Positions 2,223-58,548 of a DNA stretch of 64,000 nt are shown here, one piece after another. The position numbers and the translations under genes were made by a program. Source of the DNA: Tridacna crocea (Eukaryota > Mollusca > Bivalvia > Cardiida > Cardiidae). Location: the NCBI GenBank assembly GCA_943736015.1, contig OX031059.1, positions 41,799,159 through 41,863,158 of the forward strand. Reading direction: 5' to 3'. The notes under the pieces were generated by a model. The model ran no database searches. It was not told the DNA's origin and worked only from the letters and a program-made list of their open reading frames with translations. The stretch's first letter is position 1; every line of letters starts with the position of its first letter.

Positions 2223-2432
2223 AATATTTTAGGCTTGTCGAAATAGAAAGCATTTGCAGATAACAAAATAAAAGTGACTGAAATTTTGAAATTTGTAATG
2301 TGAAGGGTAGAAAACATTGTGGGAAAAGGAGAAAATGCTGGTTACCAGCATTTTCTCCTTTTCCCACAATGTTTTCTAAAGGCTCCTTTCTCAGAGTCGT
2401 CAAAAGTAGGGATTGTTCGGTAATAGGTTAAA
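2223..2432 (-). repeat. Family A hairpin element
   Basis: Reverse-oriented copy. The central hairpin is complete around ATGCTGGTTACCAGCAT at 2335-2351. The right end is GGTAATAGGTTAA. The left end is worn. Confidence 0.85.
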
Positions 2433-2504
2433 ACCCATTTTGTCTAACAATAGAATCCTGAATCCTGAAGTAGATTAGTCCTTGAACGAGCACAAAAATA
2501 CCAA

Positions 2505-2600
2505 ATAGCAAAAGATTTCGACCCATGCCAGCCTGCGCGGACTGCGGACTGCGCAGGCTGGCATGGGTGGATACTTTTTGCAAATGAATGATGTCCCTTT
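2505..2600. repeat. CG-rich hairpin related to family C
   Basis: CCCATGCCAGCCTGCGC pairs with GCGCAGGCTGGCATGGG across a short duplicated loop. A TTTTTGCAAATG tail follows, as in the fragment at 57570-57660. Confidence 0.6.
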
Positions 2601-3059
2601 TTCACAAAATATGTCTCATATAAATTATGATTTCTATGAACTCTATAATCTCCACTCCACTGAAACTCCAAAAAACAGGCTCGACTAATTAAAGTGGTAC
2701 CATATTAATCGAAAACAGCAATTTACGCTATAATATTATCCTAAAAAAGTTGCTATGACTGAAAATGAGTATATTGTACTACTTTGACCGAGCAACTTTT
2801 TTTCCCCCATTTTTTCCTTCTAAGAATTATAAATCTTACGCCACTCTATTCTCATTACAAAAGGATATAATGATAACCTCCCTTTTCTCAATAATAAAAA
2901 AAAAATCAACAAATGATTTCAAGATGGGCATCAAATGAATTTCTGGTCGGTTAAAAATATGCAAAACTATTATATCAGTATAAATCCTTACTCATCAACT
3001 AATAAGAAATTTCATTCCATGTTGCGCTAGAAGCGTTAGGATGGTAATACCTTAGACTG
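2601..3059. other. No feature seen
   Basis: AT-rich intergenic sequence without recognisable repeats or genes. Confidence 0.5.
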
Positions 3060-3120
3060 GCGGTATAAACTGTACCTTTTATTCAATCTGATCTTAACCT
3101 ATGGCGTCCGCAAAAGCGCA
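3060..3120 (+). repeat. Family B fragment
   Basis: CAATCTGATCTTAACCTATGGCGTCCGCAAAAG is recognisable as the right half of family B. The left arm is degraded. Confidence 0.45.
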
Positions 3121-3146
3121 TGTTTTCCTCAATGCTACCAAAAGGT

Positions 3147-3372
3147 TTAACTCTTTACCACACAATCCCGACTTTTAAAGACCCTGAAAAAGAAAGCTTT
3201 TGAAAACATTGTGGGAAAAGGAGAAAATGCTGGTAACCAGCATTTTCTCCTTTTCCCACAATGTTTTCTACCTTTTCCAAATGGAATTTTAACTTTTGAT
3301 TCACATTTATTTTGTCATCTGCAAATTTCAATTTGGACCTGTCCGTAATTTTGTCATTTGGTAAAGGTTTAA
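3147..3372 (+). repeat. Family A hairpin element, complete
   Basis: Ends TTAACTCTTTACCACACAAT and TTTGGTAAAGGTTTAA. The central hairpin arms are perfect for about 33 bases around GCTGGTAACCAGC. Confidence 0.9.
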
Positions 3373-3400
3373 ACATGCTTTTGCTACTCACCATAGAAAT

Positions 3401-3624
3401 CTCTTTACCTAACAATCCCTGGTTTTTCACGGACTTGTGGCTTTTGAAAACATTGTGGGAAAAAGAGAAAATTATGGTAACCAGAATTTTTTTTATTTCT
3501 TTTTCCCACATTGTTTTCTTCTCTGCTAAAGATCAATAGTTAATCTGTACCAATTCTTAATTTGTAGTCTGTGGACTCTGTCAGATTGGAAGAGTCTAAA
3601 ATTTGTCGTTTTGGAAAGGGTAAA
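3401..3624 (+). repeat. Family A element, diverged
   Basis: Starts CTCTTTACCTAACAATCCCTGG. The hairpin core is mutated (TTATGGTAACCAGAA) and the right end is GTCGTTTTGGAAAGGGTAAA. Confidence 0.75.
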
Positions 3625-3750
3625 GGGAACTAGTGGCCCTTTACATGAATAATTGTCAAGTTGACGAAAGATCTCGGGAAAATTTTAATACCCGGTACAA
3701 CAAAGGCAGATCCTCATTCAGAAGTCGATATTTTTTCGTGATCTTTTCAT

Positions 3751-3830
3751 ACCATTCTTGAAAACACTGTAGCAGAAGGTGAAATTAATCGTAATGAGTA
3801 CTTTCTCCTTTCGCCACAACGTTTTTTTTT
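3751..3830 (+). repeat. Family A fragment, hairpin only
   Basis: TTGAAAACACTGTAGCAGAAGG and a worn partner arm CCTTTCGCCACAACG remain. The ends are not recognisable. Confidence 0.5.
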
Positions 3831-3964
3831 AACATTAATTCATTTGAAGAGTCGTTGGAAATGCAGATGCTTTATACATAACAATGATGTTTTCACGGGT
3901 CGTGCACTTCAGTGCTGTTCCAAGAGGGAAAGGGATACGTATCTCATCGAATCTGTGATGGTTG

Positions 3965-4202: not shown

Positions 4203-4413
4203 GACAGAGGTAAAGAAGCATCCTGAAGGGAAGGAACCGGGATCCTGAACGGAGGTCCATTGTGTCCATTGTTTGGGGGTCTCGAACAATGTGCGTTCGT
4301 GTTTATGTCCGCCTTACATGCGAACTTTTGTTCTGTAGTGAGCCGGATTTTCTTCTTTTGTTCAAAATAGGTTTCTAAACTTGAAATACGGAAAGACAGA
4401 ACCGAACGAGTTT

Positions 4414-4623
4414 TAGCCCTTTAACACACAATGCCGACTTTTGGTGCTCTTGGAAAAGAAGCCTTTTGAAAACATTGTAGAAAAAGGAGAAAATTTTGTC
4501 CTTTTCCCGCAATGTTTTCTGCTCGTAAAAGAAAAATTACGCTATTAGAGCCACACTAAAATTGTCGTCTGCAAATACTTTCAATTTAGACAAAGCTAAA
4601 ATTTTATCGTCAGGTAGATTTAA
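4414..4623 (+). repeat. Family A element, one arm shortened
   Basis: Recognisable from CACACAATGCCGACTTTTGG to ATCGTCAGGTAGATTTAA. The hairpin core GCTGGTAACCAGC is deleted. Confidence 0.8.
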
Positions 4624-4625
4624 AC

Positions 4626-4822
4626 GAAATTTTGGAAGAAAGCTTTTGAAATAGTTTTAGAGAAAAAGGGGGAAATTATTGGTTACCAACATTTTACCTT
4701 TTTCCACAATGTTTGCCATCCTTTAAAAAATTAATCCTATGATTTAAGCTGCATTTAATTTGTCGTCTGCAACTAGTTCAAATTTGGCCAAGTCTACGTT
4801 TTTGTACCTTGGTAAAGATAAA
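4626..4822 (+). repeat. Family A element, diverged
   Basis: GAAGAAAGCTTTTGAAATAG, a worn hairpin around GGTTACC, then GTCGTCTGCAA and CCTTGGTAAAGATAAA. It follows the previous copy directly, head to tail. Confidence 0.7.
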
Positions 4823-5207: not shown

Positions 5208-5811
5208 AGGCTGACTGATTTTTCCGTCTTTGAAATAAGGGTATAAATCTTTGAACACCATACGATTGAGGTTTACTTTCTATGTCGACAGAAAAAAATT
5301 GTTGCCTGATACCACCCGTTTTTTTTCCCAGCTTAACACCGTGCGTAAAAAGCTATTGTACTGTAATGACGCTGCTTAGATTTGGTACAATGTCAGCTTT
5401 TTGTCCTTTTTAAGTTATGCGTCGTGTTTGGTAATGTTTCAGATAGTATTTATCTTATTCATATGTGTTTCTGTGTGCATTTTTGTCTCCATCTTTCGGC
5501 TTATATATCTGCCTTCTCTCATTTTGCCTCTCTCCTTAAAGTGCTTGCAAAATTTACATGCCTCCAAATAGTAGTTGCAATTGTGCAAAAAAAGGAGCTC
5601 GAAAAATAGCTTAGAGAGAGACAGATATAGAATGAGAGAGAATACGCGTCCGAGTTTTACGTCCTTTCGACTCTCTTGAAGTTCTTACTTATTTTGAAGC
5701 ACAAGACTCTATTTCAGACTCGAATCCAACACAGTTGCAGACAAGAAATTTAATGTGTTTCAAACAAAAAGATGAGTTGCTGGTTACCAGGATTTTCATT
5801 TTTTCCCCTAT
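5208..5811. other. No feature seen
   Basis: Contains a short GAGAGAGA-rich patch near 5610-5640. No gene is recognised. Confidence 0.45.
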
Positions 5812-6052
5812 TGTTTCAAAAGACTTCCTCCTTCTGGTCAGTAAAGAAACATCCGAACGCAGTATCGATTTGTGTAGATTTACATTGACACAAGTACCGC
5901 CATCATATAAATTATAGTTATCATTATCCCACTCTGTTTCAAAAGACTTCCTCCTACTGGTCAGTAAAGAAACATCCGAACGCAGTATCGATTTGTGTAG
6001 ATTTACATTGACACAAGTACCGCAATCATATAAATTATAGTTATCATTACGA
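5812..6052. repeat. Tandem duplication, two units of about 124 bp
   Basis: Unit 1 begins TGTTTCAAAAGACTTCCTCC at 5812 and unit 2 begins with the same words at 5936. The copies differ at only a few positions, so the event is recent. It explains the repeated peptide seen in frame here. Confidence 0.92.
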
Positions 6053-6335: not shown

Positions 6336-7454
6336 GATATTCAATCTAGTTTGAATATAAGAAGGACAAGGAATCTTTAAGTTCGAGTTATCAGTTTATT
6401 CTGATTATCGAAGAACCAATAACCGATTGAGGGATAATTTCTGCAGATGATTCATTTGAAACACGATCCTCATACGCACAAAGAGACATCGATTGTCCTT
6501 TTTTTTAAAATCACTGCATACAGTAGTGGTTTTTATTCCTCGCACAAGAAGCGTCAAAAACGATTTATCACAGAGTTGTAAGAAAGAAAATGTCATATTT
6601 GCTTTCTACCAGACACGAGCAATTTTTGTCGTTTTTTTTTTTCAGGAAGATCATAAAAACGCAGGATTAATGCACAAAAATGCAAGAAATCGAGCGAAAT
6701 CAATGCAACAGTCGGAGAAAGAAACAGACGCAGACAGATCGACGATTAGAGCGAATCAAAGACAATGATAAAACAAAGCTTACATTAGCTTCCATGATTG
6801 TACAAGTCGACTGCTCGGACAGTGCTTCTGTGCGAAGAAAACGGATGTTCTCCGGTTTATATTAACGGGAGATTTCCGGTGGTTCACACGTACTTGTGCA
6901 TCATTAGACAGAGAAACAAGCATGTATAATACAGGCAGCTACGTGTCTCAGTAGAAAAGGTATAGGAGTGGTAATCCAGAAGTTTCGGGTCCTATCCTGA
7001 CCAAAGCTCTTGTACTCTCGTTGGAGTGCCATTTGGAAAGACGCAGAACAGAGCCCTAGCCTGATACTTGAAAAAAGACGAACAATTGAGATGTTGCTGC
7101 GAGATGTCTGAAATATGTTATCTTATTTTGTGATTGAAATAATGTTGAAACAGTTTGGTAAGCACCATATGGAAAGAGACTTCAATCTTTGTTTGTACTT
7201 TTTTTGTGGGTGATGCCGTTTCACAGTATTTCAATAACATCACGGCTACCAGAGCACCTGTCCACCAGTTTCATGAGTTTCTGTGCCAACACAAACTATG
7301 TGAGCTCTATCAAGCCATTTGTATTTTTTTGCACTTAAAACGGTTTGTTTTTGAAACAACTCTCTTTTCCCCGTGAATCGAATCGTTGTAAAGCACTGAT
7401 GAGTATCACGAGATATATATTTCTATGCAAGCATAAAAAATCTGGGAGGTTTAA
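6336..7454. other. No feature seen
   Basis: AT-rich intergenic DNA. The frames around 6493-6865 overlap on several strands and lack codon bias. Confidence 0.45.
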
Positions 7455-7660
7455 TTAACCCTTTACCACACAATGGCGCCTTTTAACAACCCTTAAGATG
7501 ATACCTTTTGAAAACATTGTGGGAAAAGGAGAAAATGCTGATAACCAGCATTCTTCTCCCTCTCCCACAAAGTTTTCTACCCTATCAAAGAAAAGTTGCG
7601 TCATTTGAGCCGCTGTCAATTCGGATAGATTTAAAATTTTGCCGTGTGGTAACGGTTTAA
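7455..7660 (+). repeat. Family A element, complete
   Basis: Starts TTAACCCTTTACCACACAAT and ends GTGTGGTAACGGTTTAA. It shares its terminal TTAA region with the next copy. Confidence 0.88.
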
Positions 7661-7840
7661 TCCTTTCCAAAACAATTCCTGGTTTTTACGACCCTGGAAA
7701 AGAATGCTTTTAAAACATTTTTCACAATGTTTTTTACCCTCTCAGAACAGTTTTCAATTTTTGGGTCATGTTTATTTTGTCGTCTCCAAATGCGTTCAAT
7801 TTGGATCGGTCTAGGGTTTTGTCGTTCGGTAAATATTTAA
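7657..7840 (+). repeat. Family A element, hairpin arm lost
   Basis: Head-to-tail with the previous copy. It keeps TTTCCAAAACAATTCCTGG and GTCGTTCGGTAAATATTTAA but only one hairpin arm. Confidence 0.8.
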
Positions 7841-8647
7841 AAATACATTTATATCCGCTTTCAGGTAGTTTTTAACCAGATTTTGAACCATTCTATCCTC
7901 ATTTTTTGAAACTATAATGATTCTGATATCTTCATTCCAGATGTTGCTCATAATGGCTTCAAAATTACACAGATTACCACGCATAGAAAGTAGGCCTATA
8001 TTTAATATTTCGAAGGCCTTCAAAGTTATCGCTGTTGTCGTTTCCGGTTTTAAATAAGGACAAATCCCTTAAAATTTTCCACGCCTATAGTGATAACTAT
8101 AATGATTCTGATATCTTCATTCCAGATGTTGTTCATAATGGCTGCAAGATTACACAGATCACCACGCATAGAAAGTACGTGTAGACCTAAATGTAATATT
8201 TTGGAGGCCTTCAAAATTATCGCTGCTGTCGTTTTCGGTTTTAAATGAGGACAAATCCCTTATTATTTTCCACGCCTATAGTAATAACTACAATGATTCT
8301 GATATCTTCAAGCCAGATGTTGCTCCTAATGGCTGCAAGATCATACAGGTCACCACGCATAAAAAGTACGTGTATAAATTATGTAATATTTTGGAGGCCT
8401 TCAAAGTTATTGCTTCTGTCGTTTTCGGTTTTAAATGAGGACAAATCCATTATTTTTTATTATTTCATGTGGCTATTTCTAGAAGTGTAATGGGTAAAGA
8501 AATGTCGTAATTTAAGCTGAATGCGAATTATTTCCCCATCACAATGAATATTTTCCTCCTGCCGAAAATCTCGTTATCCGGTTAATTGACTTGAGACCAC
8601 TAGTTTTAAAAGTGGCATTCGTTGACAAAATAATCAGAGGAAATATA

Positions 8648-9662: not shown

Positions 9663-9664
9663 AT

Positions 9665-11202: not shown

Positions 11203-11407
11203 GAACAAGTTATTCTTTTTCTTGAAACAATCGCATGTCAACCTCTGACAATTTTTTATACATGTATTTACTTTTGATAAATGTTTACAGAAATAACAAA
11301 GATATAAATCATCAAACAAAATTTCTAGAATTAATAAATGCGTTGATTTTATCACTAAATGGAAGATATTGCATTGTACCGATCAAAGACAACATTCAGG
11401 GGTTATC

Positions 11408-11506
11408 AAAATCCAAGGCATTTGCAAATGACAGTTTAGATGTGACTCAAGCGATTGGATTTGTTTTGAAAAGGTTGAAAACATTACAGGAAAAGGAGGA
11501 AATGTA
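11408..11506 (-). repeat. Family A fragment
   Basis: Reverse half copy: GGCATTTGCAAATGACAG to GAAAACATTACAGGAAAAGG. The other half is missing. Confidence 0.6.
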
Positions 11507-11577
11507 ATCAAATTTTCGAGGACGCTATCAGTAAGCAAGAAAGTCATAGCTGTCTTTCATTGCAAATGCCTTACTTT

Positions 11578-11765
11578 AGCCTTTACCAAACGACAAAATT
11601 TCAGACTCATCTGCATTGAAATCTCTCGTAGACAACAAATAATCATTGCTAAAAAATTACGGGATTTGCCCCTGCAAGGATAGAAAACATTGTAAGCAAA
11701 GGCGAAAATGCTGGTTACCAGCATTTTCTTCTTTTCTAACAATGTTTTCAAAATCTATCCCAGGA
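11578..11765 (-). repeat. Family A element in annexin 3' flank
   Basis: TTTACCAAACGACAAAATTTC, then the hairpin around GCTGGTTACCAGC. It lies 50-240 bases past the annexin stop and is likely transcribed in its 3' UTR if the transcript extends this far. Confidence 0.8.
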
Positions 11766-11816
11766 CTGTTAGAACTCAGGAACAAATAAGTATTGAGTAC
11801 AGGTTTAAATGAGTAT

Positions 11817-11942: not shown

Positions 11943-14900
11943 CTGTTTGAACAATAACAAAGAAAAAAAAGTAATAACGATCTCAAGAAAAAGATGGTCG
12001 GCATAAATAATACTGAATATTAAAACTCTTCCGTAGTTGGGTGTGAAGAGAAATAATGAAAAGCAACCTGGCTCCCAATTACCTACTTTTCCGCACTGTT
12101 TTGCCTATTATCAAAAGGTGAAATTTGCAAACGAGATAATCCTTTCAAATTAGATGTAAATGCAGTTAATCCTTTGAAAAAAAAGTTGGTGCTGTTAATG
12201 GCGTGTGTGAGAATAAACTTGTAGACTATAAAGTAATTGCATAATGGGCAACCCAGAAAAAATATCAAAATACCACTAGAAAACGATTATCAACTGTCAT
12301 ATGTATTTGTTAAAGCGTGTACTAGTAAGCGCCGCAGAGTATATATCTAAAGCTGAAACTCAAGTATATCAGTGTCAAGTGGAAACGCAAATAGGTCCAC
12401 GAAATAGCTACACAGACTCTGTTGAAAAACAGTTGTCTACGGTGTTACCGAATCGCAAGTTTCCTGCTTATCTGTTCAAAGCTGATACAAATAAAAAGGC
12501 CCAAAACTAGTTGATAAATCTGAAATGTAGTTAAATCGATATAGTCCCACGGTGATATAGTTTCATCTGGCAAATGCAAACGCTAAAAATATTTCTAACC
12601 CATTAGATGACATACCTGACGAATTTGATTTTTTGCAGTTATATTTAGAATGAAGCTCTAATTTCAAAGCTGATATTCGAATTTCACTGACCAGTCATAT
12701 TCGTTCAACAAATTCACTGCAGTATCAAAATTTCCATTTCATGGAAATGATCCACCTAAAAGTCTCGACCTTGTGAACTCGCTAAATATGCATCCGTTTG
12801 TTTTCATTCCATGTGTTACATCGAAGGTAACTTTACGTATAACACAAAAAATTACCAACCTTTCCCATCCAATGTGAAAAATACCGACAATGAAAGGAGC
12901 TCATAAGCGCTATTAACCCGTTACTCCATATATACTCATTTCTACGCATTGCTTGTAGGAGCCTTTGGAAAACATTGTGGCAAAAGGTGAAATTGCTCGT
13001 GACGAGCAATTTCACCTTTTGTCACAATGTTTTCTGTGCAATCAAAAGGTGTCATATACACATAAGAAACGGCTTCATCCTTGCTGCTATTTAGAGTCAA
13101 TTAGAGATACCATAGAAATGCCTCATGGGGTAAAGCGTTAATGCAGTTGGAAACCATGTCTTATATCTAAGCTATGCTTTCAGGTAAAAGGGGCCCAATA
13201 CAACTCCGTGATGCACTATACCAAGCAAGTGATCACATCGTCGGTTTACTTCGAAAACCTCGTAACTACAGCTTGTTACAAGCTGTAGTTACGAGGTTTT
13301 TGAAGTAAACCGACGACATGGTAAATCTAACTAATGATTGAATGTGGAGGGAAGGTGGTCCTTTGGCATGGAGAAAATTGACCAATGTCATAGGCCTACA
13401 TTAGGCCTCTCTTTTATATTTGTAATACTTTCTCTTTACCCCCTCACTCCTTTCCCTACCAAAAAATAAGAGTCCCACTGCTAACCTTTATGTTCCTTAC
13501 TTTTTCTTTTCTTTCTTTTTGAAATCTCCCCAATCTCCCAGAGTTAAGTTCTTCTTCACGCAACACTTTTCTACTTGTTACTGCATAGTAATAATCACCT
13601 ATATTGAATTGATGTTCCGTCAAACTGTTATGTATCTTTGTCATATCGCCATGTTTGATGTATGTATCAGTGGGTGAATAAATGGTAATTTTGTATGTTG
13701 TTGCCTACCCTGACTGCGCATGCCGACATGGGTTGATGTTTTACTGTTGCAGCCTTAAGCCTCCTTTCAAAAAGTATGGCCCAATCATACATGGTTTTAA
13801 AAAGTTTATCAAAACCTAGGTGTCGGTAACAAGCACACTTACCTCACAACGTGACACGACCACACGGATCAGAACTTTGTCATTGGTTCCAGCACCTTTC
13901 ATGCTTTTGTATAGTCTCTCTGCGAAAAACCCTGGTCTATTTTTAGCCATCTGAACTGTAACAATAGAATAATGTTGAAAAAGAGCCGACAAAGATCAAA
14001 GAAACTTAAGAAACATTCGTGTGTTTTGATTGAGTGAAATAGTTATTCCGTTTCTTTTCAACTCATTCCTAGGCTGGTCTCTATTATAAATCGCGCTCGG
14101 TATAAGTCGGTAATGTTCAGGGCTTGAAACAAGGGGTTCGTTCGTAACTTCTCAAGCATATCTTTTCGAGGATTGGTGACAGTCCTGTCGACAGAATTCA
14201 ATTCAGATCCAGTGTGCCTCGCTTACAGTCTGTTTCCAACTTGACAGCTACACTTTAAATAAAGATATCTTACTATATATCCCCAATCCTATGACACTTA
14301 TCTAAGTTTCGAGCTACAAGAATACCTGAACATTTATATACAAATTACTTATTGGCAATTTTTGGTGTGACAGCCTTGTAGACCGTATTCCGGCTGGTGA
14401 CGTAATGACGACGGTTAATCTGTAAGCGGCAACTGGCTAACAATTCCCTTTCTTATTTCAAGGGTATCCGGTTTTCAACCTGCAAATTACCCAATACGTC
14501 AAATTGGCCCAAACTGTACCATGATCTTGTATGGAAATGCCGAAATACCGGAAAACGATTGAGACTTGAATAGCCCTTAACCAGCAATATCTATTTTCCA
14601 CAATTTTTGTACTCTTGTAAACATAATTATTTTCATTAATGGACCATATTCAAATTATCGTCTGACAGCACATACTTTCGAATTTGACATGTTTAGCATA
14701 TAAGAGTGATGGCAAGAAAGAAAATAATACTATGTTTTGTTATTGCTATTATGTTGTCGGTATAACCTGATCATCAAAGACCAAACTTGAACCATAGGCC
14801 CTTCAAAATTCTAGCAGTAAGTTGAATTATTACCTATTGCTAAGTATCCATCCTCTACATGGCCGCTGGTCTCTGATTTGACTACTTGTTCAATCTCTTT

Positions 14901-17900
14901 TCCATACTGTCGTCGGTATTCATCAAACATGGCGACTAGTTGTGGATAACTTCTAAGGCACAAAAGACGGTTGAAAGTGGATTCGTCCGTCCCGATTTTA
15001 TTAGCCCCAGCCTGTAATAGAGACCCAATGATGAATCTGGGCGGACAGACGTACAGATGCCTCAGCACATTACGTCAGTTTTACATCGATTGACTAAAAA
15101 GTTCTTACAACTTCTACTAATCTCGCTCGATTCTGCTTCCTATGAATTTGACCAGTACTCGCGCCGAATTTGTTGGCCAATGAAAAATCCCAAAGTTGAC
15201 ACCCGCTCCCAGGTATCGAATTCGGGACCTTAAAATTACGAGGCCGAAGCTCTATCTCACATTCACGGACACAACACCTCATCACACGAAAACGCGTACA
15301 GATATGGAAAGCAAAGGCTAACTGCAATGTGGGTGGTGTAGATCAAGATCATACAGCACAATACGTGTTATCTGATCTTAGATCTACATACTCAAATAAG
15401 GAGAGGCTTTCCCTTAAAAAATAACTATAAAAAATGCAACACGCGAAAAGGGACATTCGGGCATTTACGCAAATTTGTCTCATATCAGCTCCGCGCAGGC
15501 TAATCCGAAACGAAACTTTCCGTTTCCATGTACTTTTCTGTTTTGCCTAAGTCTACTATAGCACAAAATCTAAAGTAGGCTGATCCGAGTTTACACACAA
15601 GTCCAAATGCCCTTTGTTGCTCACGTGTTGCAAGCCAAAGATAAGCACTTGGGTTTTTACTTCCGGATTGAAGCTTTCATGCAGGTTAAAGCTTGAAAGA
15701 AAGCAGAACAAATGACCAAGGTGCCAAATAATTTCACACTCTTTCTACTAAATATCTTACATCAAAGAAGTCCTTGGCGTCTGCAGCAGCTTTTGCTGGA
15801 TCTACAGCAGTAGCTTCGTCCCTGTTGCCCGTCAGTAACGCGACAAGAAGCCTTTTGAAGTGTCCACTTGTGTCGCTCATTACTTCCTTTTCAAGGTCCT
15901 TCTTATACACTGAAAAAAAGTAAGGTCAGATACTCATAGATTGAGTATGGGTGCATATACACGTACGGTTTTCTAAATGGTATAGAGGATATTTGTTTTT
16001 TGCGGTGAAAGATCGAAATTTATTTCATCGAGTGGACACCATCGGTAATATTTTCACGAGTGGCGCAGTCACGAGTGAAAATATTACCGATGGTGTTCAC
16101 GAGATGAAATAAATTTCGATCTTTCACCGAAAAAAAACAACAACCAAATATTCTATTAATTTCATGCTTTTAACCTTTTCTCGGAGGAGCTTTATCAAAA
16201 TTCAGTACCGTTCTTTTCCCTTATTTCCCGTGGCGTACCCCTCCCGCATAGCAACGTTACGTCAAGCCCGAGAAATGTAAGGTATATGACGTCATATTTC
16301 CCATCTGGTTGTTTGGCACGCGCAATTTACCTAGGCAACAAGAACGTGAAAATCGGTATTTTCACTGGTGGTACCAGTGTAAGATTGAAAAATATTTTCA
16401 CTGCTATTTCTCGATATCCTACCGGAAAGCATGAAATAATACGACTTCTAACATTACTAATACCAATGATAACAATTCTTCCGACTAGAGAACTTCTTCT
16501 ACAACTACCGTCACTACTACTACATCTATTTTGAAATAGTTTAATACAAAATTTGACTTTTGTTTTCATATTATAATTTGACAAAAAGAATAAATCCATA
16601 TGATAATCCGTATGATTAAGCAACAATTCGAACTGAAGAGGTGCCAGAAACTTTTGTCATGTAAAACCAAAGTTTATAATTTATAATCTTTGTGTTCGAT
16701 TTTTAAACCATTATCACACAGTCCCTACTTTTGACGATTCTGAGAAAGAAACCTTTAGAAAACATTGTGGGAAAAGGAGAAAATGCTGGTAACCAGCATT
16801 TTCTCATTTTCCTACGATGTTTTCTACCCTTAACAGAATTAACTTAAGATTTTCAGTCCCTTTTATTTTGTCGTCTGCAAATCTCTTCGATTACGGCAAA
16901 CCTAAAATTTTGTCGTTTGGTAATGAGGGAAAAGGCAAAACTACTTCAAATGAGCACTTTGTTCTGTTATACACATATATTTATATTTTTTCGGACTCCT
17001 CTCTTTTCAGCAAGTATTAGAATGGCGTATCATGTAACAGGTTAAAAGGTATGCCATCGTACCAATACTTATACTTGTCGATAGCTAATTACCTGTTTTG
17101 TAGGCTTTCTTTATTTCTGCAATTTGTTCATTTGTTCTGGAACACAGTATTTCTATCAACGTATTCTCGTTTGTGCCAAGTCCCTATAAAAATATAAGGC
17201 ATACTGAACAATTTTGACAATCGGTTCTATTTACGCTACAAGCACACTATCTCTTGATATTGTCATGAGGTTTCAATGAACATGTACACAAATACAGGGG
17301 TGATACACTCATTAGCTTTCAATCATACCATCTACAAGGACAATCCTCAATGAAATTATCTTCAAAACTTGTTATAATAAATGGCAACTTTTTTTCTTTT
17401 AACCCATATCCAGCTGAATTAATGAAATAAAATCTTCAAACCAATAAAAAAAAAACAACACATTTTCCTATTTCAAAGATATTTTTGGAGGAAATATATC
17501 TTTTTATTTGACAATATACATGTAAATTCAAGACCAGACTGCATGTTTTTGAATATGAGAGCGTAATATTCGACCTATCAAACAGAAAACCAAACCGAAA
17601 ATAGTTTGCAGGGAGGAATCTTTGGCACTATCCAGATATGGATAGTGGATACTTTCCCGTCGTGTCTATTTTGTTTTTGTGCGATTCATGTGTTAGAGCC
17701 TAAATTTTGGAGGTATATGATAAAGGCAAAAACTTTCCCTTGATATTGATATGTGATGGTTTCTCTAACAGTGTTCAACAAAAACTATCCATGAAAATTT
17801 GTAACACAGACGAAAGTTCTTACCGATATAGCGTTATGCAGTTCTTTAATGTCGAGCTGTGTCGGGGTGTCTAATAAGGCCAGTACGAGATCCTCGAAAT

Positions 17901-40995: not shown

Positions 40996-41024
40996 TAGAA
41001 GACATTAGTAAAGAAAATGGAAAG

Positions 41025-42330: not shown

Positions 42331-42384
42331 TAGACCTCCCTACAGCAAGAGCAAGGTTAATTTGCCAAGGGCCTATGGCCTACA

Positions 42385-43592: not shown

Positions 43593-43784
43593 AATGTTAT
43601 TCCTTACTCACCTCCAATTTTCCTTAAATATTAAGCCCATCACCAAAAGATGTACATACTTAATGTTACAGGGTCAGTCAGTTGGAGAAAATTGAATTAA
43701 TTAATAGGAGTTGTTTATAACAGTCAAATGAGGAATGAATTCTGCATAGGGTGTACTACAAATACTGAGTCACAAAAATGAAAC

Positions 43785-44391
43785 TCTTCACCAAACTACA
43801 AAATTTTAGCTTGGTCCAAATTCAAAGCAATTGCAAATGACAAATGATGCTGAAAAATTGTGTTGTCTGCGCATGTCATATTCTTCGAATATTCTACCTG
43901 TCTGATATGATGCATCACTCTCCCAAAAGTCTCGAGTGGGGGGGCGGGGGGGACTTGGGGTGGGTGGTAGTAATATGCGGTGTAATTTAGTAGCAACGGT
44001 GAAAATGGCTTTTATCAGTATGTTTGAGGAGAAATCAGGCCTGTTTTAGCTCCAGATTTCTCTAAACTGCTGATCATAGCTGAATGAATTGCACCAGGTA
44101 GCGTTTTATTGAATAAATGCTTACTTTAGTTTGAAATTCAAAGTAACTGTTCTCATGTAGAAGTAGTCCGTTTTGTACCCAGAATGCAAAAATTAGATAG
44201 ATGTGAATTTGTAGAATGCCATCAAGCGGGAGATAATGAAAAAAATGGAAATTTGTTTTGGGAAGAGTATAAAAAGATGTGGGAAATAGGTAAGATGCTG
44301 GTTATCAGTATTTTTTTATTTTCCCATGATGTTCTCAAAACCCTACTTTGCTTCAGGTCATGAAAACACAGAATCGTGTGGTAATGCTTAA
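43785..44391 (-). repeat. Family A element split by module K
   Basis: The left part (CTCTTCACCAAACTACAAAA to TGCTGAAAAATTG) stops at about 43856. The rest resumes at about 44236 (AAATGGAAATTTGTTTTGGG) and runs through a worn hairpin to GTGTGGTAATGCTTAA. The 380 bp between is module K. Confidence 0.75.
43857..44232 (+). mobile_element. Module K, copy 1
   Basis: GTTGTCTGCGCATGTCATAT to GAATGCCATCAAGCGGGAGA. A second copy is at 45882-46230 in the same orientation, about 80 percent similar by eye. Its place inside a family A copy suggests insertion. No clear inverted ends are seen. Confidence 0.72.
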
Positions 44392-45343
44392 CTCCTTACC
44401 ACACAAGAAAATTTTTGACTGATTGAAAGCATTTGCAGACGACAAAATAAAGGTGACTAAAACAGGGTTTTCCCTCGGCTTTGAAAATTGGGGGTCATTG
44501 TGACCCCCTTCCTCATGAGTTGCGGGTCATTTCATTAATTTTGGGGGTCAAAAAAATGGATTTCCTCGTCATCAACTTCAAACACAATTTATAATGCATT
44601 TTACCTTTTAAACGCCAACTTCCAAGATTGAAAAGTCTGTCGATCATTTCTGACGGAATGGCCGATGTCACTTTGTGACAGACCAAACATTTTCGTCTGA
44701 ATCGCTGCTTGACGTGGCTTGATCGGCAGTTGTAGGAAGCAGACGATAGAAGAATGCTACAGTTTTCTTCGTCATGACATTTTTTTTCTGCAAACAGCAC
44801 AGACCGGTAATGTGTACTTTTATATACCGGAAGTCGTGTGAAGTATGCTATGAAATATAAAGAACCCAACTACGATCTTTGACTGGGCCCATATTTACGA
44901 CACGTGTCAAATTTACTTTTCGGCAATAACGCGTAAACCAGTCTTATTCTATAAACAAATTACCGGAAAACCACTTTTATCTAAAATAAACCCTGTAGTT
45001 AAAAAAAGAACGGTGTTCGTCTGACATTGAAGCAAGAACAGACTTGGAATTATGACGCTTCATTTAACTTCGTACATTATTTAGATTTTGGAAAGTTGCG
45101 TCACCGATGACGCACTGTCATTTATTTTGGGGGTCATTTGAATTGAGATTGCGTCAATGACGCAGGATTTGTGCGTCATGGAAAACCCTGCTAAAATATA
45201 GAAATTTGTTCTGGGAAGGGTAGAAAACACTGTGGGAAAAGGAGAAAATGCTGGTTACCAGCATTTTCTGCTTTTCCCATAGTGTTTTCAAAAGGCTTCT
45301 TTCTTAGGGGCGTCAAAAGTAGGGATCGGGTGGTAATGCTTAA
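44388..45343 (-). repeat. Family A element split by a 728-bp insertion
   Basis: TTAACTCCTTACCACACAAG to 44462 and from 45191 to GGTGGTAATGCTTAA. Removing the insertion and one CTAAAA restores a normal copy with a complete hairpin (GCTGGTTACCAGC). It shares its left TTAA with the preceding copy. Confidence 0.88.
44463..45190. mobile_element. 728-bp DNA element nested in family A
   Basis: TIRs are CAGGGTTTTCC and GGAAAACCCTG, flanked by CTAAAA on both sides (44457-44462 and 45191-45196). The interior has subterminal TGACGCA and GGGGGTCA words. The 118-codon frame on the minus strand is not a recognisable transposase, so I call it non-autonomous. TIRs resemble hAT-type elements, but the 6-bp duplication is not the usual 8. 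Confidence 0.88.
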
Positions 45344-45600: not shown

Positions 45601-45778
45601 CTTTGTAATCCAAACATTCCTGACTTTTAACTACCCTGAAAAAGAAGACTTATGAAAACATTGTGGGAAAAGGAGAAAATGCTGGTAACCAGCATTTTCT
45701 CCTTTTCCCACAAAGTTTTCTACCCTATCATAGACAAATATCATTTTAGCAACATTTAATCTGTTGTTTAAGGGTTGA
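45600..45778 (+). repeat. Family A element, right part shortened
   Basis: The hairpin is fully intact (GCTGGTAACCAGC). The right end is a worn TCTGTTGTTTAAGGGTTGA. Confidence 0.8.
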
Positions 45779-47210: not shown

Positions 47211-47222
47211 CACTATATAGAC

Positions 47223-47452
47223 TTAACTCTGTACCACACAATCCGGACTATTAATGACCGTGAGAAAGAAGCCTTTTGAAAACACTGTGGGAAAAGTAGA
47301 AAATGCTGGTAACCAACATTTTTTCCTTTTCCCACAATGTTTTCTACCCTTCCCAAATCAAATTTTGATTTTTCGGTCACATTTATTTTGTTGTCTGCAA
47401 ATACTTTCAATTTGGACCAGTCTATAATTTTGTTGTTTGGTAAAGAGTTTAA
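47223..47452 (+). repeat. Family A element, complete
   Basis: TTAACTCTGTACCACACAAT to TTGTTTGGTAAAGAGTTTAA. Confidence 0.87.
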
Positions 47453-48247
47453 AGAAATTCTTTGAAATTCTTCACCACTTGCCAGACTTAGAAATAGTTT
47501 TAAAATGATCCTTATATTGTGCCCCTTCTCTTGCTTGGCTGTTTTTAAAGAAAACGTCTAGGTATTGCATAGCCCTGTTGTTGTCTTCTGCGTTGTGGAT
47601 GTGCAAAAATTTTGACATTTTGTTATTATTTCGGCTTCCAATCAACACTTGTACTTGAAACTTGGAATACTTGTTGACAAGTAAAAGAGCAACCCATTCT
47701 TAAATCATTTCATCTAAATTATGTCCCTTTTTCTACTTAGAATTTTAACTTTTTATCAAGCACCAACAGCCAATCATTGGCACCCGCATGCTGTGTTCTT
47801 GTTTGACTTAATATTGTTAGCTAATATTGGGCATGTGCTCTTGTTCAAGAAATGGTCCTTGGGTTACCCATCCCAAAATTTATTTGCAGAATTCTGATTC
47901 GTCAAGAACATGACTGTGGTGATGATTGTAGGGTAGGTGACAGATTTCAAAATGACTTTTATGGGTGACTTTTTTAAAAATTGCTTGGCGAAGTAATGAA
48001 TTAGTTTACATATTTCAATATTTTAAAACAAAGAATTTGCTATGGTCCTCTCAAAAATTCTGGTGAGCGATAGTGTGGCCCTTTTATACCTCCATTTTGC
48101 AATTGTAGGGGTTTAACAAAAAACCTTAATAAAAATTCCAGTGGGATCGCTGACTAAGTTCTATTCATGTGTGGGTTATTTGCATTATAACACCTGTTCA
48201 GCATTTTACTTTGACCCGTCTGATCAGTCTTTGTGGTATATCTATAG
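47453..48247. other. Little of note
   Basis: No gene. A scrap of the GGACCAAACTTGG-type repeat lies near 47848-47960. Confidence 0.4.
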
Positions 48248-48860: not shown

Positions 48861-48920
48861 TGCCATGATATCTGCCATGGGTTTCCTAGAAAATCTTGGA
48901 GGACAGGACCAAGAATGCTT

Positions 48921-49148
48921 TTAACACATTACCACACAATCCCTACTTTTGTGCCCCTGAGAAAGGAGCCTTTAGAAAACATCGTGGGAAAAGGAGAAAA
49001 TGCTGGTTACCAGCATTTTCTCCTTTTCCCACAGTGTTTTCTACTCTTTTGAAATCTATTTTCAATTTTTGATTCACATTTACTTTGTCGTCTGCAAATG
49101 CTTTCAAATTGGACAAGTCCAAAATTTTGTCAAATGGTAAAGAGTTAA
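48921..49148 (+). repeat. Family A element, complete
   Basis: TTAACACATTACCACACAAT to GTCAAATGGTAAAGAGTTAA. Confidence 0.88.
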
Positions 49149-49229
49149 GAATGGTGGGCGACTATGGACCCAGACTACATATTCTGAGCCTAGTATTTGT
49201 TACCTAACATGCCAAGGGACAGCACCAGG

Positions 49230-49310: not shown

Positions 49311-49689
49311 CGGATAATTTTGAAAAAAATGGTCTTGTAATTTGGAGGTTTATTTGGCTGAGATTATTATTAGTTTAACTTATTCCATGGTTAATTATTT
49401 AGATTCCCTCGATTACCGTTTGAAACATACCTGACTTCAGATTTTAGAGATCAAGTGTACTGGTATAGATAGGGAATTATTTTTTAAAGAAAGTGCTCGT
49501 ATTGAACAATTACAAGAGAATGCCTGAATGAAATTTCAAAGTTTCTATTACACAAATATGTTGGGGAAAAATTAGGAATGAAATCAACAAGGTTGATTCT
49601 ATTTGGTGACACTTCCTGTGGCATGCTTTGTTGAGCCAATCCCATGCACCTGTTATTTTGACTCCCTTATGCACCTGACAGTTATCAAT

Positions 49690-50000
49690 GCTCTACCAAA
49701 CTATCCCATGATTGAACAACCTAGGAGAGGAAGGCTTTTTAAAACATGTTAAAAGGAGAAAACATGCATAACCAGGACTTTTTCCATGATGTTTCCAGTC
49801 CCAGCTTTTCAGAGATGAATCCTATCATTTAAACCATACACATTAAAATATTGATTCCTTGCAATTGCCTGCAAATACTTTCCAGTTGGAAAAGTATTAA
49901 ATTTTGCCATATGTTACGATATTAACCCTCTACGAAATGATCCAACATTTTATCTACTTTGATAGAAAACATGAAGGGAAACGGACAAAGTGCTGCTTTC
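49690..50000 (+). repeat. Family A remnants
   Basis: A worn plus copy (CTACCAAACTATCCCATG to CATATGTTACGATATTAA, 49690-49925) joined at TTAA to the first third of a reverse copy (TTAACCCTCTACGAAATGAT). Confidence 0.6.
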
Positions 50001-50047
50001 AAAGACAGGTCATTTAGTAACATTCATTTTGACATTTGTAAAGGCTT

Positions 50048-50132
50048 TTAACCCTTAACCAAACAATCATATTTTTTAAAAAACCGAGAAGAAGAAAGCT
50101 TTTGATAAAGGATGAAATGGAGGTTACCGGCA
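50048..50132 (+). repeat. Family A element cut by an insertion
   Basis: TTAACCCTTAACCAAACAAT runs to GGAGGTTACCGG in the hairpin loop and then stops at the start of another element. Confidence 0.7.
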
Positions 50133-53325: not shown

Positions 53326-53536
53326 CATGCCCTAATAAGACCAATTCATTCCATACTTTTTGGGACATATGACTATGTTTGACCAAAACAAGACACATTT
53401 AAGTTACATATTTATTAAAAATATTTTTTCAAGAAAAGACAACAGTTAAAGCAGAAAACTGAAACTCTATGGTAAAGGCTATTCAAGAAATGACACCCAA
53501 TAACTTCTACTATGACAGATCTACTTTTTAACTTCC

Positions 53537-53750
53537 TTAACCCTTTACCACGAATCCCAAGTTATAACGACCCTGGAAGACTCTTGAAAACATTGTGGGA
53601 AAAGGAGAAAAAGTTGGCGAGCAACATTTTCTCTGTGCCTCACAGAGTTTTCAAATACAAATTCCATCATAAAAGTAACATTTAATTTATCGTCTGCAAA
53701 TGTTTTGAATTTGGACCAGTCTTAAATAATGTCATGTGGTAAAAGGTTGA
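53537..53750 (+). repeat. Family A element, worn hairpin
   Basis: TTAACCCTTTACCACGAATC to GTCATGTGGTAAAAGGTTGA. The loop is AGTTGGCGAGCAACAT. Confidence 0.82.
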
Positions 53751-53814
53751 GCAAATGAAAATATTGGGAAATTATGTTATTACAAGTAAAACCAAAATCC
53801 ACACAATGACTTTT

Positions 53815-55131: not shown

Positions 55132-55426
55132 CTGGAGAAAAAAATGAGACCTGCACAATTTATATTTTTAGTATTTCATATGGTAAGTTTATCATTGCAC
55201 CAATGCTGCAGATATAATGGGATGTTCATTGTCTATAAATACCAGAAGTAGGTCAAATTTCATTGACTTGATTTCTGGTGTAATCAAACGTGTGCATGCT
55301 TGTTTCACATTTCGTCATTATTTTTCTGTTAGTTTTCCTTGTTTGTGTTAAATTTTCAGCAAGAATTTCAGGTCAGAGTGGGGACTGTACTGAAAGGTAA
55401 GTGAAAAAAGCCTTCTTTTTAACAGT
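55132..55426. other. Upstream of the small unknown gene
   Basis: The promoter or 5' UTR exon of the minus-strand gene would lie here or further right. No TATA box or clear exon is seen. Confidence 0.3.
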
Positions 55427-55662
55427 TGAACTCTTTACCATACAATCCTGACTTTTAACGACCGGTCACGCTGAGAAAGAAGCCTTCTGAAAACATTGTG
55501 GGAAAAGGAGAAAATGCTGGTAACCAGCATTTTCCCCTTTTCTCACAATGTTTTCTTCCCTTTTCCCCAGCAAAACCCAATTTTCAGTAACATTAATTTT
55601 GTTGTTTTGAAATGCTTCCAATTTGGACAAGTCTAAAATTATGTTGTTTAGTAAAGAGTTAA
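55427..55662 (+). repeat. Family A element, complete
   Basis: TTGAACTCTTTACCATACAA to TTGTTTAGTAAAGAGTTAA. The hairpin is intact. Confidence 0.86.
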
Positions 55663-55689
55663 CAAACTATCCAGTGTTTATTAGCCAGA

Positions 55690-55818
55690 TTTTTTTCCCT
55701 TTTTCTTAGTTCATCCATCCTGTCATACACAAATCCTATGAATTAGTAGCATTAAATTGTTGTCAGCAAATGCTCTGAATTTGGAGACATCTGAAATTTT
55801 GTCAACTGGCTAAGAATT
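55690..55818 (+). repeat. Family A right half, worn
   Basis: AAATTGTTGTCAGCAAATGC then TTTTGTCAACTGGCTAAGAA. Confidence 0.6.
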
Positions 55819-55852
55819 GAACTATACACTAATAGCTTCAGATATTCATTAG

Positions 55853-56052: not shown

Positions 56053-56162
56053 AAAATGGGAGGGGAGGGATGTAGGGGATGTGGCAGATGTGATTGTATG
56101 GTATTAGATAGCTATAAATTTATTTTGTGATGAAAGAGAAATGAATTTCAAGTGTAATTTCT

Positions 56163-56375
56163 TAACTCTTTACCAAACAACAAAATTTTAGACTGGTCCA
56201 AATTGAAGGCATTTCCAGATGACAAAATAAAAGTGACTTAAAATTTGATTTTTTTTTCGAGTAGTAAAGAAAACATTGTGGGAGAAGGAGAAAATGCTGG
56301 TTACCAGCATTTTCTCCTTTTCCCTCACTGTTTTCAGCAGGCTTCTTTCTCAGGGTCGTTGTGTGGTAGAGTTAA
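56163..56375 (-). repeat. Family A element, complete
   Basis: TTAACTCTTTACCAAACAAC to GTTGTGTGGTAGAGTTAA. Joined at TTAA to the next remnant. Confidence 0.87.
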
Positions 56376-56547
56376 ACCTTTCCAAAATAACAAATTTCAG
56401 AGCATTAGCAGACATTTAAATGAGAAAGGTGAGAATCGAAAGTTGAAATATGTCTTCGGACCAGTAAAAAAGGTTATGGGGAAAATGAGTAAATCCAGGT
56501 TATCAGCATTGTCTCCTTTTCTCCCACAATGTTTTTAAAAGCTATCT
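56372..56547 (-). repeat. Family A element, worn
   Basis: TTAAACCTTTCCAAAATAAC to CCCACAATGTTTTTAAAAGC. The hairpin arms are mismatched. It abuts the next copy. Confidence 0.7.
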
Positions 56548-56772
56548 TTAACCATTTCCCAAACAATCCCAGGTTTTACGGGTCAGGAATAGAAGCCTTT
56601 TGAAAACATTGTGGGAAAAGAAGAAAATGCTGGTAACCAGCATTTTCTCCTTTTCCCACACTATTTTTTTACCCTATCATGTAGAAAAATCATCTTTTTA
56701 GCAACTGTTTGTCATCTGCAAAATGCTTTCAGTTTGGTCTGGTCCAAAATTTGCCGTTTGGTAAAGGGTTAA
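56548..56772 (+). repeat. Family A element, complete
   Basis: TTAACCATTTCCCAAACAAT to GCCGTTTGGTAAAGGGTTAA. Confidence 0.87.
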
Positions 56773-56822
56773 GGTAGTTTTACCTGAGGATTTTCAGTTC
56801 AGAGTTCAGAATATAGTTTCTC

Positions 56823-57053
56823 TTAACTCATTATCAAACGATAAAGTTTTAGACTTGTCCAAAACTGAAAACCTTCGCAGACAACAAAATTAATGGGACT
56901 CAAAAAATTGAAGTTTGTAAAGGGAAGGGTAGTAAACATTGTGTGAAAAGGAGAAAATGCTAGTTACCAGCATTTTTTCCTTTTTCCACAGTGTTTTCAG
57001 AAGGCTTCTTTCCCAGAGCTGTAGAAACCTGGTATTGTTTGGAAAAGACTTAA
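56823..57053 (-). repeat. Family A element, complete
   Basis: TTAACTCATTATCAAACGAT to TTGTTTGGAAAAGACTTAA. Confidence 0.86.
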
Positions 57054-57200
57054 CTCCTCTGAACAAAAATCTCAATAAAAGAAGTTGTGATTGTAATGTG
57101 TCCAGCCTTGTTGTATTGGGAATGTCAACAGTAACCTTGTATGCTCTCTTGAACTACACGTTCTGTCTAAAACTTGTGAGCCATGCTCTGCAAAGGGGGT

Positions 57201-57428
57201 TTAACCCTTTCCCAAACAAGCCCTTGTTTTTATGTGTCTGCAGTACAATTCTTTTGAAAACACTGTGGGAAAAGGAGAAATTGCTCGTAACGAGCAATTT
57301 CTCCTTTTCCCACAATGTTTTGTACCCATTTTTAGAACTTTCTGCCATTTTTATCAAATTTGAACTTGTCGTCTGCAAACTCTTTGAGTTTGGAAGAGGC
57401 TAAAATTTGTTGTTTGGGAAAGGGTTAA
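57201..57428 (+). repeat. Family A, GCTCG subfamily, complete
   Basis: TTAACCCTTTCCCAAACAAG to GTTGTTTGGGAAAGGGTTAA. The core is AAATTGCTCGTAACGAGCAA, and it is closest to 35873-36123. Confidence 0.88.
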
Positions 57429-57689
57429 TGCATCTATATTATGCATTATAGCAAGCAAGTTACCATATAATTATCGATCCTCAAAATCCGTAATGTTTAA
57501 CTTCTGACTAAATCATCAAATATGATGGTCCTTTGCCATGCAGAAACTTTAAAGATAGCAAAAAGTCTTGTTTCATGTCAGCCTGCGCAAATTATGCCAC
57601 TGACATTGGTCGATACTTTTTGCAAATGCACTGTACCCCTTTTCATAAATCATGACTCTCATCGAACTTTATTGACATGTTGGTCTAGA
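57429..57689. repeat. CG-rich hairpin remnant, family C-like
   Basis: CATGTCAGCCTGCGCAAATT and CACTGACATTGGTCGATACT then TTTTTGCAAATGCAC at 57575-57632. The rest of the interval shows nothing. Confidence 0.45.
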
Positions 57690-58235
57690 TAGTATTTTGC
57701 ACGAGTTGAAGATGGGTCATGTCAGGTAAAAAAGTTGGGTCACTAAAATAAATCTTGCATTTTCTGTCCAACCCTTTTGAAAGTTGGTCAGAATGTTTAC
57801 TTTTTGTAAGTATCGACAAGTTTGAAAATCAATCATGTCATATAAAAAAAGGTCATTGGTCAAATATGAGAAAAACTTTGTGTGTCCACTAGGGTCCAAT
57901 TAAAATTAGTCCAAAAATTGGTCAGAATGTTTGGTTTGGCTACACGGTATTTCAAAGGACTGCAAAGACTGGTTTCTTTGGATCAAACAGTAAATCACTG
58001 GGAAAAAAATACAGAAAAACATTTTGTGCATTTTAGAGGGAACATTTTTAATCCAGTGCTCATGGAGTTGGTAGAAATGTTTGCCCTGATTATTTGTCCA
58101 GAAAGTTGGTTCAATGGACAAATCCTAGAAAATTCTTGCATACTGTATATAGAGGCAAAATCAGTTTTAATCTAATGAAACTGTGTGATGTTTGTCTTAA
58201 TGATATCTTGGATAAGTGCAAAATTTAGTTAACTC
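57690..58235. repeat. Dispersed mollusc repeat, about four worn units of 150 bp
   Basis: GTTGGTCAGAATGTTTACTT, ATTGGTCAGAATGTTTGGTT, GAGTTGGTAGAAATGTTTGC and the linked AAAAACTTTGTGTGTCCACT words recur about every 150 bases. I recognise the pattern from other bivalves. Confidence 0.6.
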
Positions 58236-58318
58236 TGAGCATTATGTAGGTCAGTGGGCCTTATCCAAGAGAAACTTTGTGTACGCTCTACAGACCATAT
58301 TTTCCGTCAAATACTCCT

Positions 58319-58548
58319 TCAACCCATTACCACACAATCCCTAATTTTGACGACCCTAAGAAAGAAGCCTTTAGAAAACATTGTGGGAAAAGGAGATAAT
58401 GCTGGTAACCAGCATTTTCTCCTTTTCCCACAATGTTTTATTATCCTTCACAAAACAAATTTTAAAATTTCAGTTACTTTTATTTTGTCATCTGCAAATG
58501 CTTTTGATTTGGACAAGCCAAAGACATTGTTGTTTGGTAATGAGTTGA
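58319..58548 (+). repeat. Family A element, complete
   Basis: AACCCATTACCACACAATCC to TTGTTTGGTAATGAGTTGAA. The hairpin is intact. Confidence 0.88.

Follow-up and report, generated by a model that had tools for sequence, protein, structure and literature searches.

A TTAA target duplication is common to Kolobok and piggyBac transposons. The printed hallmark tip of piggyBac elements is CC[C/T]T (PMC2872659), and the same source describes the CMITEs of Acropora corals, which are piggyBac/TTAA miniature inverted-repeat transposable elements (MITEs) with CCCTTT-type tips and a TTAA target. Their internal region is more conserved between families than their terminal inverted repeats (TIRs), the authors speculate that it acts in transposition, and the elements form head-to-tail arrays (PMC2872659). 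Internal palindromic sites are also known from the ends of piggyBac and piggyBat, where such a palindrome is bound by two cysteine-rich domains (CRDs) of the transposase dimer; it measures 19 bp in piggyBac and is imperfect in piggyBat, both in autonomous elements, and in piggyBat the internal binding site restricts activity (piggyBat study, PMC11707139). Here, a family of TTAA-ended hairpin elements, family A, is analysed in a 64,000-nucleotide stretch of the Tridacna crocea genome (GCA_943736015.1, contig OX031059.1, C4:41799159-41863158), the whole of which is called the window. Family A is probably a non-autonomous, piggyBac-type (TTAA-targeting) MITE whose central palindrome acts in cis and is required for its propagation.

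Family A resembles the CMITEs in its left tip and TTAA target and in an interior that is better conserved than the TIRs (arms 7% diverged against 15–16% for TIRs); a head-to-tail run at 43150-43596 may or may not be a counterpart of their arrays. The CMITEs differ in their length of ~100 bp and their copy number, ~1600 in A. millepora, and the available part of their description makes no mention of a palindrome (PMC2872659). Family A showed no similarity to the printed 60-bp coral CMITE consensus, as 288 of 500 shuffles aligned equally well, and homology to the CMITE interior is rejected on these scores. It is classed as a variant of the piggyBac/TTAA MITE kind and not as a CMITE, with the coral CMITEs as the nearest precedent. 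No account of family A was found among the titles and abstract beginnings of the open-access literature on piggyBac/TTAA or on mollusc and bivalve MITEs; it may be catalogued in Repbase or Dfam.

The published repeat tables of T. crocea disagree, giving rolling-circle elements as 22.48% (PMC11700175) versus Helitrons as 1.03% and DNA-unknown as 34.9% (PMC10858879). For T. maxima, 23.26% is assigned to DNA transposons in the text and to rolling-circles in the table of PMC11700175, so that class labels are uncertain, a label slip and a wrong classification being equally likely. The DNA-unknown and rolling-circle classes are both big enough to contain family A, and the available portions of the two papers hold no description of it or of its structure. 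Since these labels conflict and may place family A in the wrong class, its size is sufficient to affect published claims on expanded repeat classes in giant clams.

A conserved central palindrome

The consensus of family A spans ~229 bp from TTAA to TTAA, and full copies have a median aligned length of 234 bases (n=172). The left end reads TTAACCC(T/A)TTACCACACAATCCC and the right end, read inward, TTAACTCTTTACCAAACGACAAAATTTTAG. From left to right, the part in between consists of a 37-nt spacer, the 65-nt palindrome (AAAACATTGTGGGAAAAGGAGAAAATGCTGGT-A-mirror) and an 89-nt spacer. The hairpin proposed in an earlier, sequence-only reading stands, but its 33-base arms become 32-nt arms around one central base, with 32 of 32 pairs complementary in the consensus. 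The TIRs are imperfect and 14-19 bp long; counted from the TTAA on, the consensus ends share 13 of the first 14 bases and 16 of 19. The left tip has the consensus CCCT, its fourth base being A in 40 of 129 copies. Family A is too short to encode a transposase; ten open reading frames of the window, not selected to fall inside family A, had no Pfam match at E<=0.1. A transfer RNA search found none, and an exact hairpin 40-mer found no match in viral contigs.

In the 35 full copies of the window, "full" being defined by the ends, which limits selection bias while profile detection still favours copies with a good hairpin, divergence from the consensus was 6.1%/8.2% in the arms, 22.0%/20.4% in the spacers and 14.5%/17.6% in the TIRs. 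Copy by copy, the arms were less diverged than the spacers in 34 of 35 and than the TIRs in 31 of 35. A genome sample of twenty 10-kb stretches, hand-picked at spread coordinates on contigs C1-C16 (200 kb), was added. Of the resulting 129 full copies, 118 remained after removal of 11 with at least 10% gaps, and they gave 7.4/7.3% for arms, 22.2/22.7% for spacers and 14.5/16.1% for TIRs. The central hairpin base is itself poorly conserved (19.8% of the 118 copies differ). The arm-versus-flank comparison thus upholds the sequence-only reading in its claim of an unusually well conserved hairpin, while young age, which that reading had offered as one cause, is ruled out because, within the very same copies, the spacers reach about three times the divergence of the arms. 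Family A is not uniformly young, its spacers diverging from the consensus by ~22% on average. When one window copy was compared with the genome, its best matches were 98%, 94% and 93% alike and the remainder 87-94%, with one at 79% (40 of 1428 candidates scored).

Changes in the palindrome are also paired. The pairing set comprised the 145 copies with an ungapped hairpin among 214 hairpin-spanning matches (69 dropped), 16 of them perfect palindromes. Double complementary changes numbered 99, whereas 2000 permutations averaged 23.7 and never exceeded 47; the observed doubles clustered at pairs 3, 4, 8, 13, 20 and 26. Both bases were flipped in 17 copies at pair 3, 6 at pair 4, 19 at pair 8, 12 at pair 13 and 11 at pair 20, with few one-sided intermediates at these five pairs (two or three where listed). 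The permutation test ignores the relatedness of copies and subfamilies inherit their states, so a tree built without the arms matters as its complement. Its internal branches carried 8 double compensatory changes and 34 single breaks; on its terminal branches single breaks numbered 325, beside 13 double compensatory changes and 10 other doubles. Five copies have pairs 3 and 8 flipped together, three of them with CCCTTTCCCAAACAA tips (window members 35869 and 57197); a divergent subfamily with tips like CCCTTTACYCCATAG has pairs 3, 8, 13 and 20 flipped in five copies (window member 12910); and pair 26 is flipped alone in eight copies.

Genome-wide, pair 3 was found as G-C 300,437 times (control 1) and as C-G 14,530 times (control 2), with the intermediates C-C at 933 (control 103) and G-G at 869 (control 0); these are copies in an inherited state, not events, at the one pair of 32 that was counted, picked since the sample showed its flip. 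Under independence, about 3 C-G doubles would be expected. The double state at pair 3 was propagated, and the intermediates were not. Subfamilies inherit double compensatory changes, and the paired changes suggest that the hairpin shape itself is kept during spread, for which young age offers no explanation.

The level at which this constraint acts can be judged from the distribution of changes. Among 30 copies, shared variants amounted to 1.25 per arm site versus 5.25 per spacer site, and singletons were equal (0.78 versus 0.74), although saturated spacer sites could bias this test. Internal branches carried 0.84 changes per site in the arms versus 3.47 outside (ratio 0.24), and terminal branches 6.25 versus 11.27 (ratio 0.55). 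Hairpin deletions occurred in 13 of 129 copies, and an equally large loss outside the hairpin in 6 of 129; as the breakpoints of the hairpin-deleted copies differ in the alignment, the sample shows no amplified deletion lineage. These results support selection on the hairpin, mainly among propagating source elements. The selection proposed by the sequence-only reading is accordingly supported mainly at the source level, on shared variants and internal branches, and may extend to inserted copies. Its other proposal, gene-conversion-like repair, found no support in inserted copies: private double changes numbered 6 (three complementary) against 5.2 expected, which is the chance level, leaving repair between arms in inserted copies unsupported.

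Taken alone, the singleton test would leave inserted copies unconstrained; the neighbour test and the nearest-relative counts point the other way. With six unanimous neighbours as reference, arm errors were 5.2% versus 9.9% for the rest. Copy 18580 differed from five fetched nearest relatives at 7 of 320 arm sites and 66 of 825 others, five of the seven arm differences being one change private to this copy. When pairs were binned by distance on an independent half of the sites, the ratio of arm to other divergence went from 0.36 to 0.52 at close range; a first, biased binning had given 0.71, stronger than the unbiased value. Some constraint may thus act on inserted copies as well, and unsampled source variation (118 copies aligned out of ~1.2 million) may explain the arm constraint that remains.

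Genome-wide abundance and TTAA insertion

The sequence-only reading had counted more than 45 copies or pieces of a roughly 230-bp element in 64 kb, a number that is exceeded here. A profile built from the window copies found 67 stretches of family A, and 66 after it was rebuilt with copies from elsewhere in the genome, over the range 2201-58550; they cover 11,731 of 64,000 bases (18.3%) with the first profile and 19.0% with the rebuilt one. Full copies number 35 under the end criteria by either profile. Ten dinucleotide shuffles of the window gave no profile match at E<=10. With up to 2 mismatches, the hairpin centre matched 62 times on both strands, at 36 distinct places, with 0.53 expected by chance, and the left-end motif 60 times versus 1.56 by chance.

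The assembly has 1,048,827,098 bases in 31 contigs, of which 18 contigs of 40-77 Mb make up all except ~0.4 Mb; the window has a GC content of ~37%. The exact 13-mer of the hairpin centre occurs 150,197 + 150,240 = 300,437 times in the genome (reversed control 0 + 1), and both TIR cores with the centre at the right spacing 60,981 + 60,745 times (control 10 + 3). All 20 sampled stretches contain family A, with a coverage of 3.3%-40.7% per stretch. Overall coverage of the sample was 19.5% (230 matches, 97 full), or 20.6% with the profile rebuilt from copies including that sample, and a bootstrap over stretches gave 15.4-23.8% and 0.94-1.48 million pieces genome-wide. Extrapolation from these 200 kb puts family A at about 1.2 million pieces; if it holds, a single 230-bp element accounts for ~200 Mb of a 1.05-Gb genome. 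The density is genome-wide and the window is typical, not special. Chance and local density are ruled out as causes of the abundance by the shuffles, the motif counts, the genome-wide counts and the sampled stretches.

Exact TTAA stands at both ends of 93 of 171 full copies (left 130, right 116), compared with exact TTAA within the same search width at 186 of 2000 random places. The joined flanks of 157 copies gave a spanning match for 42, many of these being self-matches or other family A copies. Visual inspection of these 42 queries left five clean empty sites, each with a single TTAA and one of them in the window:

L019 6124, empty in L028
L019 2238, empty in L022
L016 1554, empty in L019
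L016 1809, empty in L019
window 8982, empty near window 7933 in the 191-bp tandem repeat, where the alignment has one gap

At L019 8671 and L026 1401, among others, the match spans the joint with an imperfect TTAA. The TTAA targeting assumed earlier is confirmed by the empty sites. Adjoining copies with one common TTAA occur as well (for example 30608-31070, 43150-43596 and 7452-7843), which would also be expected from insertion into the TTAA of a neighbouring copy. TIR position 8 covaries between the two ends (24 A/A, 77 T/T and 20 mixed of 121; p=1e-10), as expected if a single transposase reads both; at positions 11, 14, 15 and 17 end-to-end agreement lies above the prediction from the margins in raw counts. 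Subfamilies alter their two TIRs in step.

Mobiliser and competing explanations

The piggyBac transposase domain PF13843 has 118 matches in the genome, many with open frames and several identical in score. In 18 of these loci that were read, TTAA-flanked ends are clear in 8 and weak in a ninth. The local autonomous piggyBacs (L031, L034-L039, L043) resemble family A in being flanked by TTAA and in ending TTAA-CCCTTT..., TTAA-CCCATT... (as does L031) or TTAA-CCCT.... They differ in their length of 2.6-2.9 kb, in carrying a transposase and in the remaining TIR, the resolved tips being CCCTTTATATAC, CCCATTTATGCCT, CCCTTTCAGYGC and CCCTWGTCATGC, with CCCTCTAGA weakly resolved. Where the sequence-only reading left the choice between a piggyBac and a Kolobok mobiliser, target and left tip favour piggyBac; the autonomous partner with the same ends that it had asked to look for was not found in the 18 of 118 loci, nine of which lack two resolved ends. 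At L035, a piggyBac is inserted between two pieces of one family A copy. The piggyBacs of L034, L035, L036 and L037 (on C10, C18, C3 and C12) have open frames and agree at 99.5-99.9% over 2.77 kb, a near-identity that suggests recent piggyBac activity. L041 and L045 are 97.8% alike across the entire 4.1 kb fetched, flanks and family A copies included: what was duplicated here is larger than one transposon.

In the proposed mechanism, a piggyBac-superfamily transposase supplied in trans would cut and paste family A, and the palindrome would be required in cis for propagation, so that the source lineage must stay palindromic. Dead inserted copies would then lose it through mutation and hairpin-prone deletion. 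By analogy, the 65-nt palindrome could serve as a strong transposase dimer site, or as a cruciform aiding synapsis or excision. For the wider question of why certain MITEs reach such numbers, the kept internal part with its paired changes names a testable cis element.

Besides the signs of constraint on inserted copies and the choice of a single pair for the genome-wide count, several observations tell against this mechanism. The right tip has the consensus CTCT, mostly CTCTTT, in departure from the CC[C/T]T hallmark (PMC2872659); at position 6, 75 of 129 copies have T and 48 have C. The palindrome and the TIRs have one 6-mer in common only (CACAAT), and at 65 nt the palindrome is far longer than the 19 bp of piggyBac (PMC11707139). 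No autonomous element with CCC(A/T)TTACCA ends occurs in the 18 loci read of 118. At pair 26, 10 doubles stand beside 7 and 7 intermediates, enough for chance steps. One-sided changes of the left base of pair 3 total 14,817 (control 126), of which only 933 are to C; those to A or T (~13,900) fit the decay of inserted copies. The A-T double at pair 3 is present in 684 copies (control 13), few compared with C-G, and may or may not exceed chance.

A bolder extension, offered tentatively, casts the palindrome as a portable module for amplification. It is kept by subfamilies with tips as different as CCCATTACCA, CCCTTTCCCA and CCCTTTACYCCATA, which restore its pairing through double changes, and the transposase would recognise its substrate by the hairpin together with a short tip and not by a matching TIR. 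If so, a defective piggyBac derivative could fill about one-fifth of a genome, and the coral CMITEs would exemplify this design independently.

The rivals differ mainly in what keeps the hairpin. In the same TTAA MITE, the palindrome could be kept by germ-line copying from arm to arm, through template switching or hairpin repair, and not by selection. The commonness of paired changes, the scarcity of both flip intermediates at pairs 3, 4, 8 and 13 and the fact that several doubles are complement flips (G-C to C-G, A-T to T-A) agree with such copying, yet it would preserve pairing and not arm sequence, which is also conserved. Moreover, private doubles in inserted copies are at chance, and unpaired changes dominate the terminal branches (325 single against 13 compensatory and 10 other doubles), which makes this account rather unlikely. 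Nearly the same doubt attaches to an RNA role, in which a double-stranded or microRNA-like stem feeds small-RNA pathways to the gain of host or element, and which could act on inserted copies. As RNA, the 68-nt stem has a folding energy of -51.5 kcal/mol (z = -15), and the arms are conserved among nearest relatives too, but no Rfam family reached its gathering score in the window, and the contrast between internal and terminal branches agrees better with source elements.

Other rivals concern the transposase and the class. A Kolobok-type or other TTAA superfamily is an improbable source, though a right tip of CTCTTT departs from the classical piggyBac form, given that the left tip CCC(A/T)TT matches both the local autonomous piggyBacs and those of corals (PMC2872659). 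Least credible is a Helitron (rolling-circle) or short interspersed nuclear element derivative, a label that automatic pipelines may apply. In its favour, the 22.48% of rolling-circle elements for T. crocea (PMC11700175, Table 2) is the sole class there that could hold a family of ~20% undivided, but the other annotation gives Helitrons 1.03% and DNA-unknown 34.9% (PMC10858879). Family A itself has inverted repeats at both ends, a central and not terminal hairpin, and TTAA duplication at empty sites. Helitrons have no target duplication and no TIRs, and a Helitron identity is therefore rejected on the duplication and the TIRs.

Copies and other repeats in the window

The 66 rows below give the family A copies of the window (coordinates from the rebuilt profile, strand, description).

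2201..2435 (-) full copy, perfect hairpin
3143..3375 (+) full copy, perfect hairpin; also DNA fold
3401..3628 (+) full copy
3757..3827 (+) piece, hairpin only
4409..4616 (+) near-full, hairpin partly missing
4619..4818 (+) without left end
5700..5845 (-) piece
7452..7660 (+) full copy
7655..7843 (+) most of hairpin lost; abuts copy 7452..7660 at TTAA
8982..9215 (+) full copy inside 191-bp tandem-repeat unit; empty site near window 7933
11386..11504 (-) piece
11574..11812 (-) full or near-full copy
12910..13145 (+) divergent subfamily, hairpin pairs 3, 8, 13, 20 flipped
14575..14698 (+) piece
16700..16927 (+) full copy
18299..18540 (-) full copy
18580..18817 (+) full copy, top profile score in window; 68-nt hairpin -51.5 kcal/mol as RNA
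21307..21388 (-) piece, left part
21758..21887 (+) piece, weak
22076..22161 (+) piece, right end
25821..25888 (-) piece, right end, weak
28033..28183 (-) without left end
29276..29446 (-) decayed, hairpin largely lost
30608..30849 (-) full copy
30838..31070 (+) full copy; one TTAA common with copy 30608..30849
32353..32600 (+) full copy
32726..32907 (+) without right end
33315..33556 (+) full copy
33558..33682 (-) piece
34925..35001 (-) piece, right end
35869..36127 (+) full copy, TTTCCC-ended subfamily, pairs 3 and 8 flipped
36308..36525 (+) full copy, hairpin deletion
36547..36700 (-) piece
37028..37157 (+) right half
37263..37418 (+) left part
37416..37593 (+) left part
37637..37859 (-) full copy, right arm minus 13 nt
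38047..38284 (+) full copy
40398..40612 (-) full copy, hairpin deletion
40766..40999 (+) full copy
41271..41468 (-) near-full, hairpin mostly lost
41617..41839 (+) near-full copy
42382..42617 (-) full copy
42926..43151 (+) full copy
43150..43298 (+) partial, in head-to-tail run
43300..43368 (+) right end, in head-to-tail run
43363..43596 (+) full copy, in head-to-tail run
43782..43861 (-) right end
44241..44386 (-) left part
44386..44465 (-) right end
45178..45343 (-) without right end, hairpin kept
45610..45768 (+) worn ends, hairpin kept
47220..47454 (+) full copy
48918..49151 (+) full copy
49685..49913 (+) decayed near-full copy
49920..50050 (+) piece, weak
50046..50132 (+) piece, weak
53533..53752 (+) full copy
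55425..55665 (+) full copy
55691..55823 (+) right half
56159..56375 (-) full copy
56371..56550 (-) without left end
56545..56776 (+) full copy
56819..57057 (-) full copy
57197..57432 (+) full copy, TTTCCC-ended subfamily, pairs 3 and 8 flipped
58316..58550 (+) full copy

Additionally, the window holds a second fold-back family of ~270 bp with arms AAGTGTCGTCCCGGATTAGCCTGCGCA..., whose copies are 67-83% alike (6055-6334, 27305-27575, 27711-27983, 31083-31349 and 15424-15578); its arm motif is presumably one that also occurs in other bivalve sequences. Further long palindromes, 82-96% self-complementary, lie at 5014-5194, 8639-8828, 15996-16136, 19761-19882 and 13238-13316, so that hairpin-bearing repeats are common in the window. 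Tandem units of 30-33 bp, made of the palindrome AATGACC(C)TGGTCATT and CTACGTAGAG spacers, occupy 302-561 and 38814-39020, the two places being 68-84% alike. A 191-bp tandem repeat (2.9 copies) is present at 7910-8458 and 8816-8984, with a further unit split by the family A copy at 8982. Other repeats, 67-79% alike over several hundred bases, lie at 58555-61688 and 59207-63044, within the final 6 kb.

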